DNA from: Cellulomonas aerilata
GTDB lineage: Bacteria; Actinomycetota; Actinomycetes; Actinomycetales; Cellulomonadaceae
NCBI RefSeq assembly: GCF_007991755.1
Contig: NZ_BJYY01000012.1
Coordinates: forward strand, 124,001-188,000
Direction of reading: 5' to 3'
Length of the DNA stretch: 64,000 nt
Of this stretch, positions 3,427-8,739 are shown one piece after another. Under the pieces are notes generated by a model. The model ran no database searches. It was not told the DNA's origin and saw only the letters and a program-made list of their open reading frames with translations. Position numbers and translations under genes: made by a program. Position 1 is the stretch's first letter; the number at the start of each line of letters is the position of its first letter.

Positions 3427-4671
3427 ATGAGCACCGAACCCGACGTCGTGATCACCGGTCTCGGCGCGACCACCCCGCTCGGCGGCGACGTCGCGAGCAC
3501 CTGGGACGCCGCGCTCGCCGGCAAGTCCGGCATCCGGACCCTCGACAACGACTGGGCGGACAGGTACGAGATACCGGTCCGCTTCGCCGGCACCCTGGCG
3601 CAGCCCGCGTCCGAGCGACTGTCCCGCCCGGAGACCAAGCGGATGGACCCGTCCGCGCAGTACGCGCTCGTCGCGGCGCGCGAGGCCTGGGCCGACGCCG
3701 GGGCGCCGGAGATCGACGGCGAGCGCCTCGGCGCCGTCGTCGCGTCCGGCATCGGCGGCATCTGGACGCTGCTCGACGGCTGGGACGTGGTGCGGGAGAA
3801 GGGCGCACGGCGCGTCCTGCCCATGACCGTCCCCATGCTCATGCCGAACTCCCCCGCCGCGAACGTCTCGATCGAGTTCGGTGCCCGGGCCGGCGTGCAC
3901 GCGCCGGTCTCCGCCTGCGCCTCCGGCGCCGAGGCGATCGCGTGGGGCGTCGGGATGATCCGCTCCGGCCGCGCCGACGTCGTCATCGCCGGCGGCACCG
4001 AGGCCGTCGTCCACCCCATGCCGATCTCCGCCTTCGCGGCGATGAAGGCGCTGTCGACCCGCAACGACGACCCCGCCGGGGCGTCGCGGCCGTACGACGT
4101 CACGCGCGACGGCTTCGTCATGAGCGAGGGTGCCGGCGTCGTCGTGCTGGAGAGCGCCGAGCACGCCCGCGCCCGCGGCGCGAAGGTCTACGGCCGGGTG
4201 GCCGGCTACGGGATGACCGGCGATGCGCACCACATCGCCGCGCCGGAGCCGACCGGCGTCGGGCAGACCACCGCCATGCGCTACGCGCTGCAGGACGCCG
4301 GCGTCACCCCGCACGACGTCGTGCACATCAACGCGCACGCCACGTCGACCTCCGTCGGCGACATGATCGAGGCCCGCGGCATCCGTGCCGTCTTCGGCAC
4401 GGACGCGGACCACATGCGCCTGTCGGCCACCAAGTCGATGACCGGGCACCTGCTCGGCGCGGCCGGGGCGCTGGAGTCCATCTTCAGCGTGCTGGCGCTG
4501 CGCGACCGGCTCGCTCCCCCGACCATCAACGTGTCCCAGCCGGACCCGGACCTCGACCTCGACCTGGTGCGCGACACGCCGCGGGAGCTGCCCCAGGGGC
4601 AGATCGCGGCGATCAACAACTCGTTCGGCTTCGGCGGCCACAACGTGGCCCTGGTGCTGACCAGCGCCTGA
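3427..4671 (+). CDS. fabF: Beta-ketoacyl-ACP synthase II FabF
   Basis: Elongating condensing enzyme of type II fatty acid synthesis, 414 residues. The active-site Cys164 lies in VSACASGAEA, and the two catalytic histidines in NAHATSTSVGD and KSMTGHLLGAAG. The ATG is preceded by CCCAGGAGCC as ribosome binding site. It is the last gene of the fab operon and is followed by a strong bidirectional terminator. The C-terminal NNSFGFGGHN motif is intact. Confidence 0.96.
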   Translation: MSTEPDVVITGLGATTPLGGDVASTWDAALAGKSGIRTLDNDWADRYEIPVRFAGTLAQPASERLSRPETKRMDPSAQYALVAAREAWADAGAPEIDGERLGAVVASGIGGIWTLLDGWDVVREKGARRVLPMTVPMLMPNSPAANVSIEFGARAGVHAPVSACASGAEAIAWGVGMIRSGRADVVIAGGTEAVVHPMPISAFAAMKALSTRNDDPAGASRPYDVTRDGFVMSEGAGVVVLESAEHARARGAKVYGRVAGYGMTGDAHHIAAPEPTGVGQTTAMRYALQDAGVTPHDVVHINAHATSTSVGDMIEARGIRAVFGTDADHMRLSATKSMTGHLLGAAGALESIFSVLALRDRLAPPTINVSQPDPDLDLDLVRDTPRELPQGQIAAINNSFGFGGHNVALVLTSA

Positions 4672-4690
4672 GGGGTCCTCGGCACGTACT

Positions 4691-4724
4691 GCGGCCCCGC
4701 ACCGGACGTCCGGTGCGGGGCCGC
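4691..4724. terminator. Bidirectional terminator between fabF and the DUF3145 gene
   Basis: A perfect 34-base palindrome (17-base arms centred on GGAC/GTCC) lies between two converging genes, 19 bases after the fabF stop and 20 bases before the end of the DUF3145 gene. This stem can end transcription from both sides. Confidence 0.85.
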
Positions 4725-4744
4725 GGTGCATGCGAGGCGGGCGC

Positions 4745-5245
4745 TCAGCCGACCCGGTGCAGCCACCGCACCGGCGCCCCGGCGCCGGCGTACCGGAACG
4801 GCTCGAGCTCGTCGTCCCACGCCTGGCCCAGCGCGAGGTGAAGCTCCACCTGCAGGCGGGCCGGGTCGCCCACGTGCTGCAGCGCGGCGCGGATGCGGTC
4901 CTCGGGCACGACGACGTTGCCGTGCACGTCGGTCGCCGCGTGGAAGATGCCCAGCTCGGGGGTGTGGCTCCAGCGGGAGCCGTCGGCCCCGTGGCTGGCC
5001 TCCTCGGTGACCTCGTAGCGCAGGTGCGCCCAGCCGCGCAGGGCGGACGTCAGCCGTGAGCCGGTCCCCTGAGGGCCCTGCCACGAGTGCTCCGCCCGGT
5101 ACATCCCGGGCGCGGCAGGCTGCTCGATCCAGTCCAGCGACACGCGTGTGCCGAGCACGCTGCCCGCCGCCCACTCGACGTGCGGGCACAGCGCGCGCGG
5201 CGACGAGTGCACGAAAAGTACGCCGCGGGTGATGGCACCAGCCAT
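4745..5245 (-). CDS. DUF3145 family protein
   Basis: A 166-residue soluble protein recognised as DUF3145, a family restricted to actinobacteria and commonly found directly beside the fab cluster (SCO2391 position in Streptomyces). The start MAGAITRGVLFVHSSP and a conserved tryptophan-rich C-terminus (AWDDELEPFRY) are typical. An AGGAGGA ribosome binding site precedes the ATG. Function is unknown; the conserved location only suggests a link to lipid synthesis. Confidence 0.9.
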   Translation of the reverse strand: MAGAITRGVLFVHSSPRALCPHVEWAAGSVLGTRVSLDWIEQPAAPGMYRAEHSWQGPQGTGSRLTSALRGWAHLRYEVTEEASHGADGSRWSHTPELGIFHAATDVHGNVVVPEDRIRAALQHVGDPARLQVELHLALGQAWDDELEPFRYAGAGAPVRWLHRVG

Positions 5246-5400
5246 GTCGTTCCTCCTGTCGGGTCGAGGTTCGTCTTCCCCAACGACCTCATCCCGAACC
5301 GGGAGGTGTGCACGGTGTTCGCGGCGTGCTGCGCGTCATCATGCCCTACGCGCCGCGGGCGGCGCCAACGCGCGCCCGCCACGGTCGGGTGACAGGGGCC

Positions 5401-5886
5401 CTACAGCTGCTCGCGGACGGCGCGCATGGCCTTCTTGCGGACCGACCGCTCGAGGCGGTCCAGGTAGAGCATCCCGTCGAGGTGGTCCACCTCGTGCTGC
5501 AGGCAGCGGGCCATGAGCTCGGTGCCCTCCACGACGACCTCGTGACCGTCCAGGTCGGTCCCCACCACCCGGGCGTACCAGGCGCGCTTGGTCGGGAACC
5601 ACAGGCCGGGCACCGACAGGCACCCCTCGTCGCCGTCCTGGTAGTCCTCGGACAGCTCGACGATGGTCGGGTTGAGCACGTAGCCCACCTCGTCGTCGAT
5701 GTTCCAGGAGAAGGCGCGCAGCCCGACGCCGATCTGGTTGGCCGCCAGACCCGCACGCCCCTCGGTGTCGACCGTCTCGACGAGGTCGGCGACGAGGGAC
5801 CGGACGCGGTCGTCGACCTGGGTGATCGGCTCGCACGGTGTGCGCAGGACGGGGTCGCCGACGGTCCGGATCTCTCTCATCGCCAT
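5401..5886 (-). CDS. def: Peptide deformylase
   Basis: Removes the N-formyl group from new proteins in the cytosol, using a bound metal. With the start at [14 protein letters not shown] the protein is 161 residues. All three family motifs are present: GLAANQ (residues 46-51), EGCLS (87-91, metal-binding Cys89) and HEVDH (131-135, two metal-binding His and catalytic Glu132). The frame continues open upstream of this start, but that extension shows no conserved content, so the shorter start was chosen. A second Met two codons in is equally possible. Confidence 0.95.
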
Positions 5887-5998
5887 GGCGTCGATCCTGC
5901 CATGGCAGCGTGGACCGTCCGGCGCCACGACGGCACCGCCGGACGACGACGGTGCGTCGTCCGGCGGTGCTCGCCGGCGGGTGCCGGACGGCGGGCCG

Positions 5999-6235
5999 TC
6001 AGGCCTGCGGGTCGCGCTGCTCCGGGACCCCGGTGAGCAGCGTGCGGACCTCGTCCTCGTGGAAGCGGCGGTGGCCACCGAGCGTGCGGATGGCGGAGAT
6101 CTTCCCCGCCTTCGCCCAGCGCGTCACCGTCTTGGGGTCCACCCGGAACAGCGTGGCGACCTCGGACGGCGTGAGCAGGGATCCGGACGCACTCGGGTCC
6201 TGCCCCGGGGACCGGGGGGTGAGGGGCATGGTCAT
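5999..6235 (-). CDS. bldC: BldC-like MerR-type DNA-binding protein
   Basis: A 78-residue protein made almost entirely of one winged helix-turn-helix (residues about 21-68), with the stretch [16 protein letters not shown] and TLGGHRR that mark BldC. In Streptomyces BldC delays entry into development by binding direct repeats cooperatively; in non-sporulating actinobacteria its targets are less clear. The start is preceded by AGGAG about 10 bases away. The 5' leader of roughly 100 bases folds into a candidate c-di-GMP-I riboswitch whose closing stem contains part of this ribosome binding site, so translation may respond to c-di-GMP. Confidence 0.9.
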
Positions 6236-6247
6236 CGCTGTGCTTCT

Positions 6248-6335
6248 CCTGTCGTTCGGTGGCTCGGCTGACCGTCGAGGGTCCCGTGGCTGTGCGTCCC
6301 CGGCTCGCACCGGGTTTGCCGTTGTCGCTGACAGG
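6248..6335 (-). promoter_or_regulatory. Candidate c-di-GMP-I (GEMM) riboswitch upstream of bldC
   Basis: Read on the minus strand, the leader has the GEMM core in order: GGCAAACC, a hairpin CCGGU/GCCGG capped by a GCGA (GNRA) tetraloop, GGGACGCACAGCC, then a second arm ending GGUCAGCC...CCACCG. This parallels the Vc2 aptamer, including the G, A and C expected at ligand positions 20, 47 and 92; one A of the usual GCAAAGCC is a C. The ends pair as CCUGUC (6335-6330) with GACAGG (6253-6248), and the last bases of that stem belong to the AGGAG ribosome binding site at 6250-6246. Closing the stem should therefore hinder translation of bldC. Family assignment is by eye. Confidence 0.7.
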
Positions 6336-6600
6336 GACATCATCGGCCGAAGACGGACATTTGTGCGGCAACGCGCGGACGACTGGGCCGAATGGGTCGA
6401 TCCGGACGCCGACGTCCCTTTCGGCAGGTCGGGGCGGGGCGCCGGCAGAGGCCCGGGCACGGGCCTCGGTGTCCCGACGCCGGACCGGATCCGCACGCGG
6501 AGAGCCGACCGAAAGGGGTGCCGCGCAGGTAAAGAGTGTCCTAAGATGGCGTCAACGCCCAGGCGCGAGCGGGGCGCGGCGGGCTTCGAACCGCCGGACG

Positions 6601-6635
6601 AGGGGCGCCTCACCCTGTGCGGGTGAGGCGCCCCT
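6601..6635 (+). terminator. Orphan intrinsic terminator-like hairpin
   Basis: Perfect 15-bp arms with a 5-base loop (TGTGC), followed by TTC. No protein gene lies upstream on the same strand: bldC reads away from it. It either ends a short untranslated RNA starting near 6555 (a TAAGAT box lies at 6542-6547) or regulates the small ORF downstream. Confidence 0.6.
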
Positions 6636-6711
6636 TCACCTGTCCCTAGGCGGCTCCGTCGCGGCGGTCCTACGGTGGCTGGACCACCACTCGACCGAGG
6701 AGAGCAGTGCG

Positions 6712-6858
6712 ATGACGCAGCCTGACGAGACCCCCGACTCCCTGGTGCCGGAGGCCGACGAGAACCTCCAGGACGAGGAGCTCGCGCCCGAGGAGACGAG
6801 CCGCGACCTGCCGAGCATCGGCACGGACAGCGACCCGGCCAGCTTCCTGCGGGGCTAG
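6712..6858 (+). CDS. Small acidic hypothetical protein
   Basis: A 48-residue, strongly acidic, probably disordered protein (MTQPDETPDSLVPEADEN at its start) without any recognised domain. A GAGGAG ribosome binding site precedes the ATG by 10 bases and a TACGGT box at 6671-6676 could be its -10 element, which together make it more convincing than chance. It lies alone between an orphan hairpin and a tRNA gene. No function can be proposed. Confidence 0.55.
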   Translation: MTQPDETPDSLVPEADENLQDEELAPEETSRDLPSIGTDSDPASFLRG

Positions 6859-6988
6859 CACGCGGACGAGCTCGCCCGGCGGGTGGGACGGCGCCGCTGA
6901 GGCGCCGTGGGTGCCCGTCGGCGACCGGCCGCACGCGGTCCGCGGTGCGTGCGGGCACGGCGGACCCGACCGGTAGCCTGGCCTGCGC

Positions 6989-7062
6989 GGGCCAGTAGCT
7001 CAGCCGGTCAGAGCAGCGGACTCATAATCCGTCGGTCGTGGGTTCAAGCCCCACCTGGCCCA
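6989..7062 (+). tRNA. tRNA with CAU anticodon (elongator Met or Ile2)
   Basis: A full cloverleaf: acceptor arm GGGCCAG/CTGGCCC, D-arm GCTC...GAGC, anticodon stem GCGGA/TCCGT with loop CTCATAA, and T-arm GTGGG/CCCAC with TTCAAGC. The 3' CCA is not encoded. A CAU anticodon is used by elongator methionine tRNA and by the isoleucine tRNA whose C34 becomes lysidine; the GGGC-type acceptor leans to Ile2, but sequence comparison is needed. A TAGCCT -10 box lies at 6974-6979. Confidence 0.95.
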
Positions 7063-7143
7063 CCCGCACGGCGTGCTCCGTGTGCCGCTGGACCGGGCGC
7101 GAGGGTCATCGCCGGGAGGTCCCGGGGCGAGCTCCCACGCCGG

Positions 7144-7326
7144 GCGCCTGATACCCGCCGAGCCGCCGCCCCGCTCCAGCGTCCGCGCCAGCACGGACCG
7201 GGCCGCCTTCCGGCCGAGGTCCATGGCCGGCTGGTGGACGTCGACAGAGCCGGCTGGCACCGCAGCGTCCAGACCCTGCCGTCCAAGCCGACGATGCCTA
7301 CGTCGTCCGGAACCCTGTGCGCCTAC
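7144..7326 (-). pseudogene. Remnant of a LacI-family regulator (C-terminal part)
   Basis: Between about 7186 and 7322 the DNA closely resembles the 3' part of the intact lacI-type gene at 9408-10430 (its 9483-9618 stretch). Both encode the segment LRCQPALST followed by QPAMDLGRKAA. In the remnant one base is missing where the intact gene has GTGCACCGTCGACAG, so the two halves are in different frames, and the DNA-binding domain is absent. It lies directly after the tRNA gene. It is a dead copy left by duplication or recombination. Confidence 0.75.
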
Positions 7327-7381
7327 GTCCCGGCGTCCCGGCGTCCCGGCGTCCCGGCGTCTCTGCGTCTCGGCGTCTCTG
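7326..7381. repeat. 8-bp tandem repeat (CGTCCCGG)
   Basis: Four perfect copies of CGTCCCGG are followed by three degenerate copies (CGTCTCTG, CGTCTCGG, CGTCTCTG). The unit is not a multiple of three and no gene crosses it. It lies between the lacI remnant and the TetR gene, and looks like slippage expansion. Confidence 0.8.
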
Positions 7382-7429
7382 TGTCCGGCACAGCGTGCCC
7401 ACGGCGGGTCGTCGCCGTCTGCCGACGCC

Positions 7430-8017
7430 CTACGGGCGACGGTGCAGCGTTGCGGTCAGCGTCGCGGCCAGGTGAGTTTGGGCGGCGGCGGTGGTCAGCC
7501 GTCCCAGCCGGACACCGTCCGCGGCGCCCACCATCAACCAGGTCAACATCGTCAGCACCCACTCAGGGTCCACCTCGACCCGGAAGTCCCCGCTCTCCTG
7601 ACCTCGGCGCACCAACCGACGCAGCGACTCCTCCGTCGCCGCCGTCTGCTCCAGCAGCGCGGCCTCCACGTGCTCCTGCAGCGGCTGCAGACCGAGCAGT
7701 CCCACGACGGCCGCCAACCTCCCCAGGCCCTCGACCACGCGCTCCAGAGCCTGCACCGGGGAACCGTCGTCCGGCGCAGCGTCCTGCACCGCACGCACGA
7801 ACGCCTCCGCCGCCGCCTGGCACAGCTCGGCGACGAGCGCAGCACGGGAGGGGAAGCGCCGGAACAGCGTGGCCCGGCTGATCCCGGCTGCGGCAGCCAG
7901 CTCGGGCATCGAGGCAGCCGGCGCCAGGGCGAGGTGCCGCGCGACCGACGCGGCCACCGGATCCGCGAAGAACTCGCCTGCGGAAGCGGACGGGTGGGGC
8001 GACGAGGGAGCGGGCAT
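7430..8017 (-). CDS. TetR-family transcriptional regulator
   Basis: A 195-residue regulator with the TetR-type helix-turn-helix at residues about 38-64 (MPELAAAAGISRATLFRRF), followed by an all-helical C-terminal ligand domain. It is divergent from the GAP-family membrane protein gene, 53 bases away. An inverted repeat TGAGACG-CTCG-CGTCTCA lies between them and is the likely operator, so it probably represses both its own gene and the membrane protein. The ligand is unknown. Confidence 0.88.
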   Translation of the reverse strand: MPAPSSPHPSASAGEFFADPVAASVARHLALAPAASMPELAAAAGISRATLFRRFPSRAALVAELCQAAAEAFVRAVQDAAPDDGSPVQALERVVEGLGRLAAVVGLLGLQPLQEHVEAALLEQTAATEESLRRLVRRGQESGDFRVEVDPEWVLTMLTWLMVGAADGVRLGRLTTAAAQTHLAATLTATLHRRP

Positions 8018-8033
8018 CCCCTGAGCGTACGAG

Positions 8034-8070
8034 TGAGACGCTCGCGTCTCAAATCAGTTAGCATCGTCTC
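8034..8070 (+). promoter_or_regulatory. TetR operator and leaderless promoter of the GAP-family gene
   Basis: The 18-base inverted repeat TGAGACG-CTCG-CGTCTCA spans 8034-8051, and a third half-site CGTCTCA is at 8065-8071. A TAGCAT -10 box at 8059-8064 sits exactly 6 bases before the ATG at 8071, so the message is expected to start at the start codon. The inverted repeat covers the -35 area, as a repressor site would. Confidence 0.65.
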
Positions 8071-8739
8071 ATGCTGACCGTTTCCCTGATGTGGGCCATC
8101 GCCGGGCTCGCGGCCCTGGACTCCCTCAACCCGGCCACGATCGCCGGGGTCACGCTCATCCTGCTGGCCCCGATGCGCCGACCCGGCGTCACCGCCCTGG
8201 CGTACGTCATGGGCGCCGGCGTCATCGTCTGGACGGTCGGAGCCGGTCTGCTCGTGGGCAGCGCCCAGGTGGGCGAGGCCGTCGCAGGGGCCTCGACCTG
8301 GGTGCGCCGAGGGGCTCTGCTGCTGGCCGCGGTCATCCTGACGATCAGCGCCGTGCGCAGACTCAGCCCCCGCACGCGGGCTGCGGTCGTCCTGCCAACG
8401 TGGTTCGGGCCCTGGACCGCGGCCCCTCTCGGTGTGCTGGTCACCGCTGCGGACCTGCCCAACGCCTTCCCCTACCTGCTGGCGATCGAGCGCCTCAGCG
8501 CCGCCGCCGTACCCACCGGCGCAGGCCTTGCCGTGCTGGCCGGCTACTCGCTCGTGTACTGCCTCCCCTGCCTTCTACTGCTGGCTGCGGGTTCGGTCTG
8601 GCGTGACCGCATCACCTCCCGCCTGCAGCGGGTGTACCTCCGCTTCGGCGGTGAGCGCGTGCAACCCCGCTCCGTGCGCGCCTCGGTCGGCCTGCTGGTG
8701 CTGGCCACCGTCGTCACCGTGCTCGCGTTCGCACTCTGA
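8071..8739 (+). CDS. GAP-family (sulfolipid-1-addressing-like) integral membrane protein
   Basis: A 222-residue protein with about six hydrophobic segments, opening with the family-like stretch AALDSLNPATIAGVTLILL. The fold resembles the LysE/Sap transporters; mycobacterial relatives help place sulfolipid or peptidoglycolipid at the surface. Here, with a divergent TetR regulator and no lipid genes nearby, a small-molecule exporter is equally likely. There is no ribosome binding site; the -10 box position implies leaderless translation. Confidence 0.75.
   Translation: MLTVSLMWAIAGLAALDSLNPATIAGVTLILLAPMRRPGVTALAYVMGAGVIVWTVGAGLLVGSAQVGEAVAGASTWVRRGALLLAAVILTISAVRRLSPRTRAAVVLPTWFGPWTAAPLGVLVTAADLPNAFPYLLAIERLSAAAVPTGAGLAVLAGYSLVYCLPCLLLLAAGSVWRDRITSRLQRVYLRFGGERVQPRSVRASVGLLVLATVVTVLAFAL

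Follow-up and report, generated by a model that had tools for sequence, protein, structure and literature searches.

A class I c-di-GMP riboswitch aptamer in the leader of a BldC paralog of Cellulomonadaceae, with predicted control of translation

BldC is without the domain with which classical MerR proteins bind effectors, according to PMC5859096, and how BldC-type proteins receive signals is therefore a natural question. A locus from a member of the Cellulomonadaceae raises it directly. In the window (the whole 64-kb stretch of DNA that was analysed) a first-pass annotation had placed a c-di-GMP-I (GEMM) riboswitch on the minus strand in front of a bldC-like gene, with a closing stem built from the ribosome binding site. 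Is this RNA a c-di-GMP aptamer, which gene does it precede, and how might it act?

The GEMM elements, the GNRA hairpin and the end pairing of that annotation were all recovered by reading the minus strand, in the order GGCAAACC (6320-6313), a hairpin with a GCGA loop (6314-6299), GGGACGCACAGCC (6300-6288), GGUCAGCC (6273-6266) and ACCG (6260-6257), with CCUGUC (6335-6330) facing GACAGG (6253-6248), which continues into AGGAG (6250-6246). The covariance model agreed, since cmscan of the whole 64-kb window matched the c-di-GMP-I aptamer model RF01051 at 6255..6330 (minus strand), scoring 48.1 bits (cut-off 35; E-value 2.6e-6). The aptamer starts 95 nt 5' of the BldC-family gene. The sister model RF03167 gave 55.8 bits (E-value 5.9e-13) in a cmscan of 6200-6400, which is below its own cut-off of 59. 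Four places in the 4.06-Mb genome score above the RF01051 cut-off (65.5, 62.5, 54.3 and 48.1 bits), the copy in the window being the weakest, and no match above this cut-off was found in any of 14 control genomes.

We aligned 50 distinct leaders by sequence with MAFFT, identical leaders having been merged, and took the structure from the match to the Rfam RF03167 model. Two loci with an unassignable 3' part or start (L042 and L099) were left out of this alignment and also when pairings and distances were counted. As the copy at L042 is degenerate, its omission slightly favours the riboswitch reading. Covariation bears out the proposed fold. Across the 50 leaders 97.0% of cells are paired, compared with 93.3% in shuffles, and 8 pairs show changes on both sides, compared with 2.6 in shuffles. 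None of 500 shuffles reached any of five covariation measures, and controls in which the structure was slid along the alignment gave only 21–42% paired. The stem P1, whose 5' strand GUC-A-GCG (6326..6332, minus strand) and 3' strand CG-AA-C-GAC (6251..6258, minus strand) were placed by covariation over the same leaders, is paired in 99.7% of cells and has two pairs changed on both sides, with GC/UA and CG/GC exchanges. The P2 hairpin with its GNRA loop GCGA (6294..6319, minus strand) is paired in 100% of cells and the P3 arm (6261..6291, minus strand) in 93.3%. One P3 pair occurs as AU, GC, GU and UA; another, 57-82, fails to form in 30 of the 50 leaders, and at the base pair of P3 the window has A-C.

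For the ligand pocket, we matched alignment columns ourselves to the position numbers in PMC3764141; by this matching the junction J2/3 of the window (6291..6293, minus strand) reads A47, C48 and A49. The ligand contacts G20, A47 and C92 (named as such in PMC4744006) are kept in 49, 50 and 49 of the 50 leaders, respectively, and all three are present in the window; C44 and G83 are each found in 50/50. Chance resemblance in GC-rich DNA is ruled out by the E-values, the conservation and the covariation. Since the RF01051 score exceeds its cut-off, the fold covaries and the pocket letters are kept, the leader of this gene is, as judged from its sequence, a class I c-di-GMP riboswitch aptamer of the ordinary type. 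Two outcomes had been named in the first-pass annotation as refuting it, a covariance-model score under threshold and missing covariation among relatives; both were put to the test, and it withstood both.

The one pocket-side exception in the window is position 48, a key conserved position according to PMC3764141, which is C here and A in 48 of the 50 leaders. In the same genus, the corresponding aptamer of L041 carries C at position 20 and that of L042 is altered in several places. Together with C48, these copies hint at relaxed constraint in the window's genus. It is thus conceivable, but in our judgement improbable, that the copy in the window is decaying and has lost its switching, though the copies of relatives switch. 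Its rank as the weakest of the four genome copies, its C48, the A-C at the base of P3 and the altered copies at L041 and L042 all fit such decay, but the score is still above the RF01051 cut-off, and G20, A47, C92, P1 and P2 are intact.

The sister model raises the related question of which ligand is sensed. An aptamer of a variant class for another cyclic dinucleotide, for example c-di-GMP-I-GGC or the c-AMP-GMP sensors, would be in keeping with the observation that RF03167 often outscores RF01051 in Cellulomonadaceae: it is the reported model at 12 of 12 re-scanned riboswitch loci (at 7 of them below its cut-off of 59), and it matches above cut-off in 114 of 221 genomes. However, position 47 is A in 50/50 leaders where the RF03167 consensus has G. 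The name GGC probably refers to positions 20, 47 and 92, and with 55.8 bits against a cut-off of 59 and no G at position 47 (taken as the defining position from the printed consensus) the window was not assigned to the c-di-GMP-I-GGC class. The c-AMP-GMP sensors have A at position 20. This A is absent from the window, which has G, as do 49/50 leaders, and the c-AMP-GMP variant was rejected as well. Moreover, none of the 116 Cellulomonadaceae genomes with the riboswitch lacks GGDEF proteins, and the window's genome has at least 15 (15 of 41 candidates scored). Another ligand is thus quite unlikely, and we retain c-di-GMP. Among 103 genomes in 18 riboswitch-free genera, GGDEF proteins were found in 51, with just one in 42 of these; eight riboswitch-free genomes have three or more (for example 11 in G202 and 8 in G220). 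Flagellin is encoded in 90 of the 116 riboswitch genomes compared with 29 of 105 others, and also occurs in ten riboswitch-free genera, so flagella are only partially tied to the riboswitch.

The gene behind the aptamer (5999..6235, minus strand; ATG at 6235-6233) encodes a 78-aa winged helix-turn-helix protein of the BldC family, as judged by the NCBI BldC model NF033787 (101.2 bits, cut-off 77), the Pfam families HTH_17 and MerR, and its position in a tree. The claim of a riboswitch before a bldC-like gene holds in so far as the aptamer lies directly 5' of a BldC-family gene, but this gene is a paralog and not bldC itself: in the same genome the bldC linked to purM (L068) lacks the riboswitch, and the riboswitch gene falls on a separate branch. 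We use BldC2 as our own label for the riboswitch-linked paralog. The BldC2 gene of the window adjoins def, not purM, whereas the riboswitch-free L068 is purM-linked, and we take a purM neighbourhood to be the mark of Streptomyces bldC. The next gene on the strand encodes peptide deformylase (5401..5886, minus strand, with the start codon assigned from the sequence; PF01327, 142.9 bits for 5401-5889); the same gene lies 3' of BldC2 at 5 loci of the window's genus and at many, not all, Cellulomonas loci.

In a tree of 70 BldC domains, the 44 riboswitch rows lie on one side of one branch with support 95/89. The tree is built on 61 columns and leaves many forks unresolved, and its bootstrap values are rough. 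The riboswitch state changes only once in 96% of 200 bootstrap trees, and none of 500 shuffles came as low. Streptomyces BldC groups with the riboswitch-free copies. Within the riboswitch branch there is also a third BldC type (L019, L021-L023, L032, L033, L037, L182 and L186), which likewise carries the riboswitch. By these comparisons the riboswitch-linked gene is a Cellulomonadaceae BldC paralog and not the Streptomyces-type bldC.

How widely does this arrangement occur? RF01051 matches are present in 116 of 221 Cellulomonadaceae genomes and 7 of 25 genera, and BldC in 217 of the 221. The riboswitch motif was found directly 5' of the best BldC match per genome in 30/30 genomes, a figure which describes the closest relatives of the query and is no estimate for the share of all BldC genes; cmscan of 8 of these 30 loci returned the aptamer in all. 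Among 20 further chosen loci the motif was present in 9 and absent in 11, and a purM motif lay 1.5–1.9 kb upstream at all 11 loci without it and at none of the 9 with it, a comparison for which the 1.5-kb flanks of the first 30 loci were too short. Six of the riboswitch-free BldC loci were also scanned with cmscan at high sensitivity, and none of the 6 showed an aptamer. By pattern, 12 of 80 named BldC loci carry the motif, and by cmscan 6 of 20 drawn from those 80 carry the aptamer, in both cases all in Cellulomonas or Actinotalea. In a sample of the whole order the riboswitch occurred in 39 of 396 genomes, 22 of them outside Cellulomonadaceae; at 13 loci fetched from outside the family no BldC motif was found, either in the 600 nt from the aptamer onward (10 loci) or in the whole locus (the other 3). 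The link between riboswitch and BldC thus seems, on this small sample, to be confined to Cellulomonadaceae, where the riboswitch is tied to one BldC paralog and is kept in several genera.

We now turn to how the aptamer might act on BldC2. The Shine-Dalgarno AGGAG (6246..6250, minus strand) lies directly 3' of P1, and CCU (6333..6335, minus strand) is able to pair with its AGG, but this pairing is not conserved. The first-pass annotation saw the closing stem as made from the ribosome binding site, but this did not survive as a conserved design, as the three pairs on the Shine-Dalgarno side are formed in 50% of cells in the 50 leaders. Real partners of the Shine-Dalgarno paired no better than shuffled ones (summed p 0.33–0.48 and contiguous p 0.09–0.10, for 43 distinct cases from 53 leaders), and we rejected Shine-Dalgarno bases inside P1 as a conserved feature. 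What is conserved is a 6-bp P1 and its distance from the Shine-Dalgarno core that follows: of 53 leaders, 26 have no nucleotide in between, 25 have one and 2 have four. From P1 to the ATG there are 11–17 nt across leaders and 15 nt in the window.

A hexamer search placed a −10-like GATGAT at 6339..6344 (minus strand), ending 6 nt before the GUC of P1 (6332-6330). In 51 of 51 distinct leaders the distance from the end of such a hexamer to the first G of P1 is 6–8 nt, a regularity that is partly built in, the hexamer being the best within an allowed 3–11 nt. The best-scoring hexamer pair, sought only a short way 5' of P1, adds a weak −35-like CGCACA (6362..6367, minus strand). When the window was scanned strictly for promoters, none was returned, either before the aptamer or elsewhere. 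Because of the −10-like hexamer 6–8 nt before P1, the transcript probably starts near 6332, and the CCU (6335-6333) may then lie upstream of the start and hence not be transcribed. Between the two hexamers of most BldC2 promoters, in several genera, there is also a TGTCC word (at about 6351-6360 in the window), which is perhaps the site of a second regulator.

Control is most likely exerted at the level of translation, because P1 and the ATG are only 15 nt apart and a scan for intrinsic terminators found no terminator-like site in 5900-6720. We infer a sequence of events which leads from ligand binding, on a transcript that starts near 6332, through the translational level to an OFF response. 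The class I riboswitch would form the 5' end of the BldC2 mRNA or lie close to it, and c-di-GMP bound in the three-way junction would stabilise P1. The stabilised P1, flush against the Shine-Dalgarno, would hinder loading of the 30S subunit and less BldC2 would be made; as c-di-GMP drops, P1 would open and BldC2 would be made. Translational control of BldC2 by c-di-GMP through a class I riboswitch, probably of the OFF type, is, on present sequence evidence, the explanation that we regard as best, with a probability of about 0.7.

The sign is the softer part of this proposal. OFF is suggested because a ligand-stabilised P1 flush against the Shine-Dalgarno should hinder initiation. In folding predictions with the aptamer enforced, the Shine-Dalgarno lost accessibility in 17 of 49 leaders and gained it in 8, the window being among the 8, with an unpaired fraction that rose from 0.50 to 1.00. 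The same riboswitch could therefore have the opposite sign, with c-di-GMP freeing the start region so that more BldC2 is made. In the ligand-free RNA, the 5' GUCA would pair with the UGAC at the start codon and the CC of ACCG with the GG of the Shine-Dalgarno, and the fold predicted for the window RNA from GUC onward does contain both sets of pairs. The minority of leaders in which the Shine-Dalgarno becomes freer shows that such release is not general, and the position of P1 argues for hindrance, so that we consider this opposite sign unlikely, although the least unlikely of the alternatives. We therefore keep the OFF switch, with modest confidence only, since the folding is undecided and the other riboswitch genes of the genome, with their secreted or surface-type products, suggest that ON would rather be expected for that layout.

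Of these three other genes, one lies among sugar-polymer genes and encodes a secreted protein with a PKD domain, one encodes a secreted protein of 419 aa and one is a 66-aa ORF. At the first of them (L005, about 4254-8632, C14 of the window's genome) the riboswitch lies 5' of the PKD-domain gene, and a related PKD-domain protein with no listed riboswitch is encoded next to it; the region also contains glycosyltransferase-like ORFs. Short ORFs of about 40–66 codons that end in (V/L)P-x-Q follow many riboswitches of the family (L008-L018, L020, L025-L031 and L034-L036, and in the window's genome L006 near 7064); to our knowledge they belong to no known family. The C-terminus of BldC proteins, VPxQR, is similar.

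Of 71 distinct riboswitch copies (L001-L099), 55 have the word TTCACCC or its complement GGGTGAA in the 300 nt upstream of the core; in 48 of the 71 it lies 55–100 nt upstream, near the promoter. Over all loci it occurs 117 times in 581 kb, or about 0.06 per 300 nt. It looks like the site of a shared regulator, and is absent from the window's own leader. In the window's genome TTTCACCCGNNYG occurs 7 times compared with once for its reversed control, in some cases near sugar-polymer genes. The BldC repeat given in PMC5859096 is AATTXXXX(C), to which TTTCACCCG bears no resemblance, and we did not take it for this published repeat. One might speculate, although we find it doubtful, that c-di-GMP sets the dose of BldC2, a paralog with no effector domain that stays under riboswitch control, through the RNA and that BldC2 itself then controls the genes behind the other riboswitches (those for exopolysaccharide-region proteins and small ORFs), so that the signal would act twice on one regulon, possibly with the conserved element TTTCACCCG as a shared operator.

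We found no description of riboswitch control of BldC by c-di-GMP in the open-access literature, although survey supplements and subscription papers may list such loci; apparently, a known riboswitch class here has an undescribed target, a BldC paralog. If our proposal is true, a conserved RNA sensor gives one branch of BldC proteins a c-di-GMP input, at the RNA level and for a Bld protein other than BldD, and a link between c-di-GMP and BldC-type proteins becomes directly testable outside Streptomyces.

The RNA resembles the Vc1 and Vc2 riboswitches of Vibrio cholerae and Cd1 of Clostridioides difficile in its fold, in G20, A47 and C92 and in the C44-G83 contact, and these riboswitches likewise control genes for a change of life style. 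It differs from them in that its target is a BldC paralog, in that there is no terminator and in that P1 abuts the Shine-Dalgarno in nearly every leader. Compared with the c-di-GMP-I-GGC RNAs of RF03167 the overall sequence is alike, with high scores in the family, but position 47 is A and not G. BldC2 shares with Streptomyces BldC the wHTH family NF033787 and a nearly identical DNA-binding core; unlike Streptomyces BldC, it lies on a separate paralogous branch, is not purM-linked and carries the riboswitch. BldD binds c-di-GMP as a protein, as PMC4151990 describes. The two systems would thus share a c-di-GMP input into an actinobacterial developmental regulator, whereas here it is the mRNA, and not the protein, that is predicted to bind the ligand.
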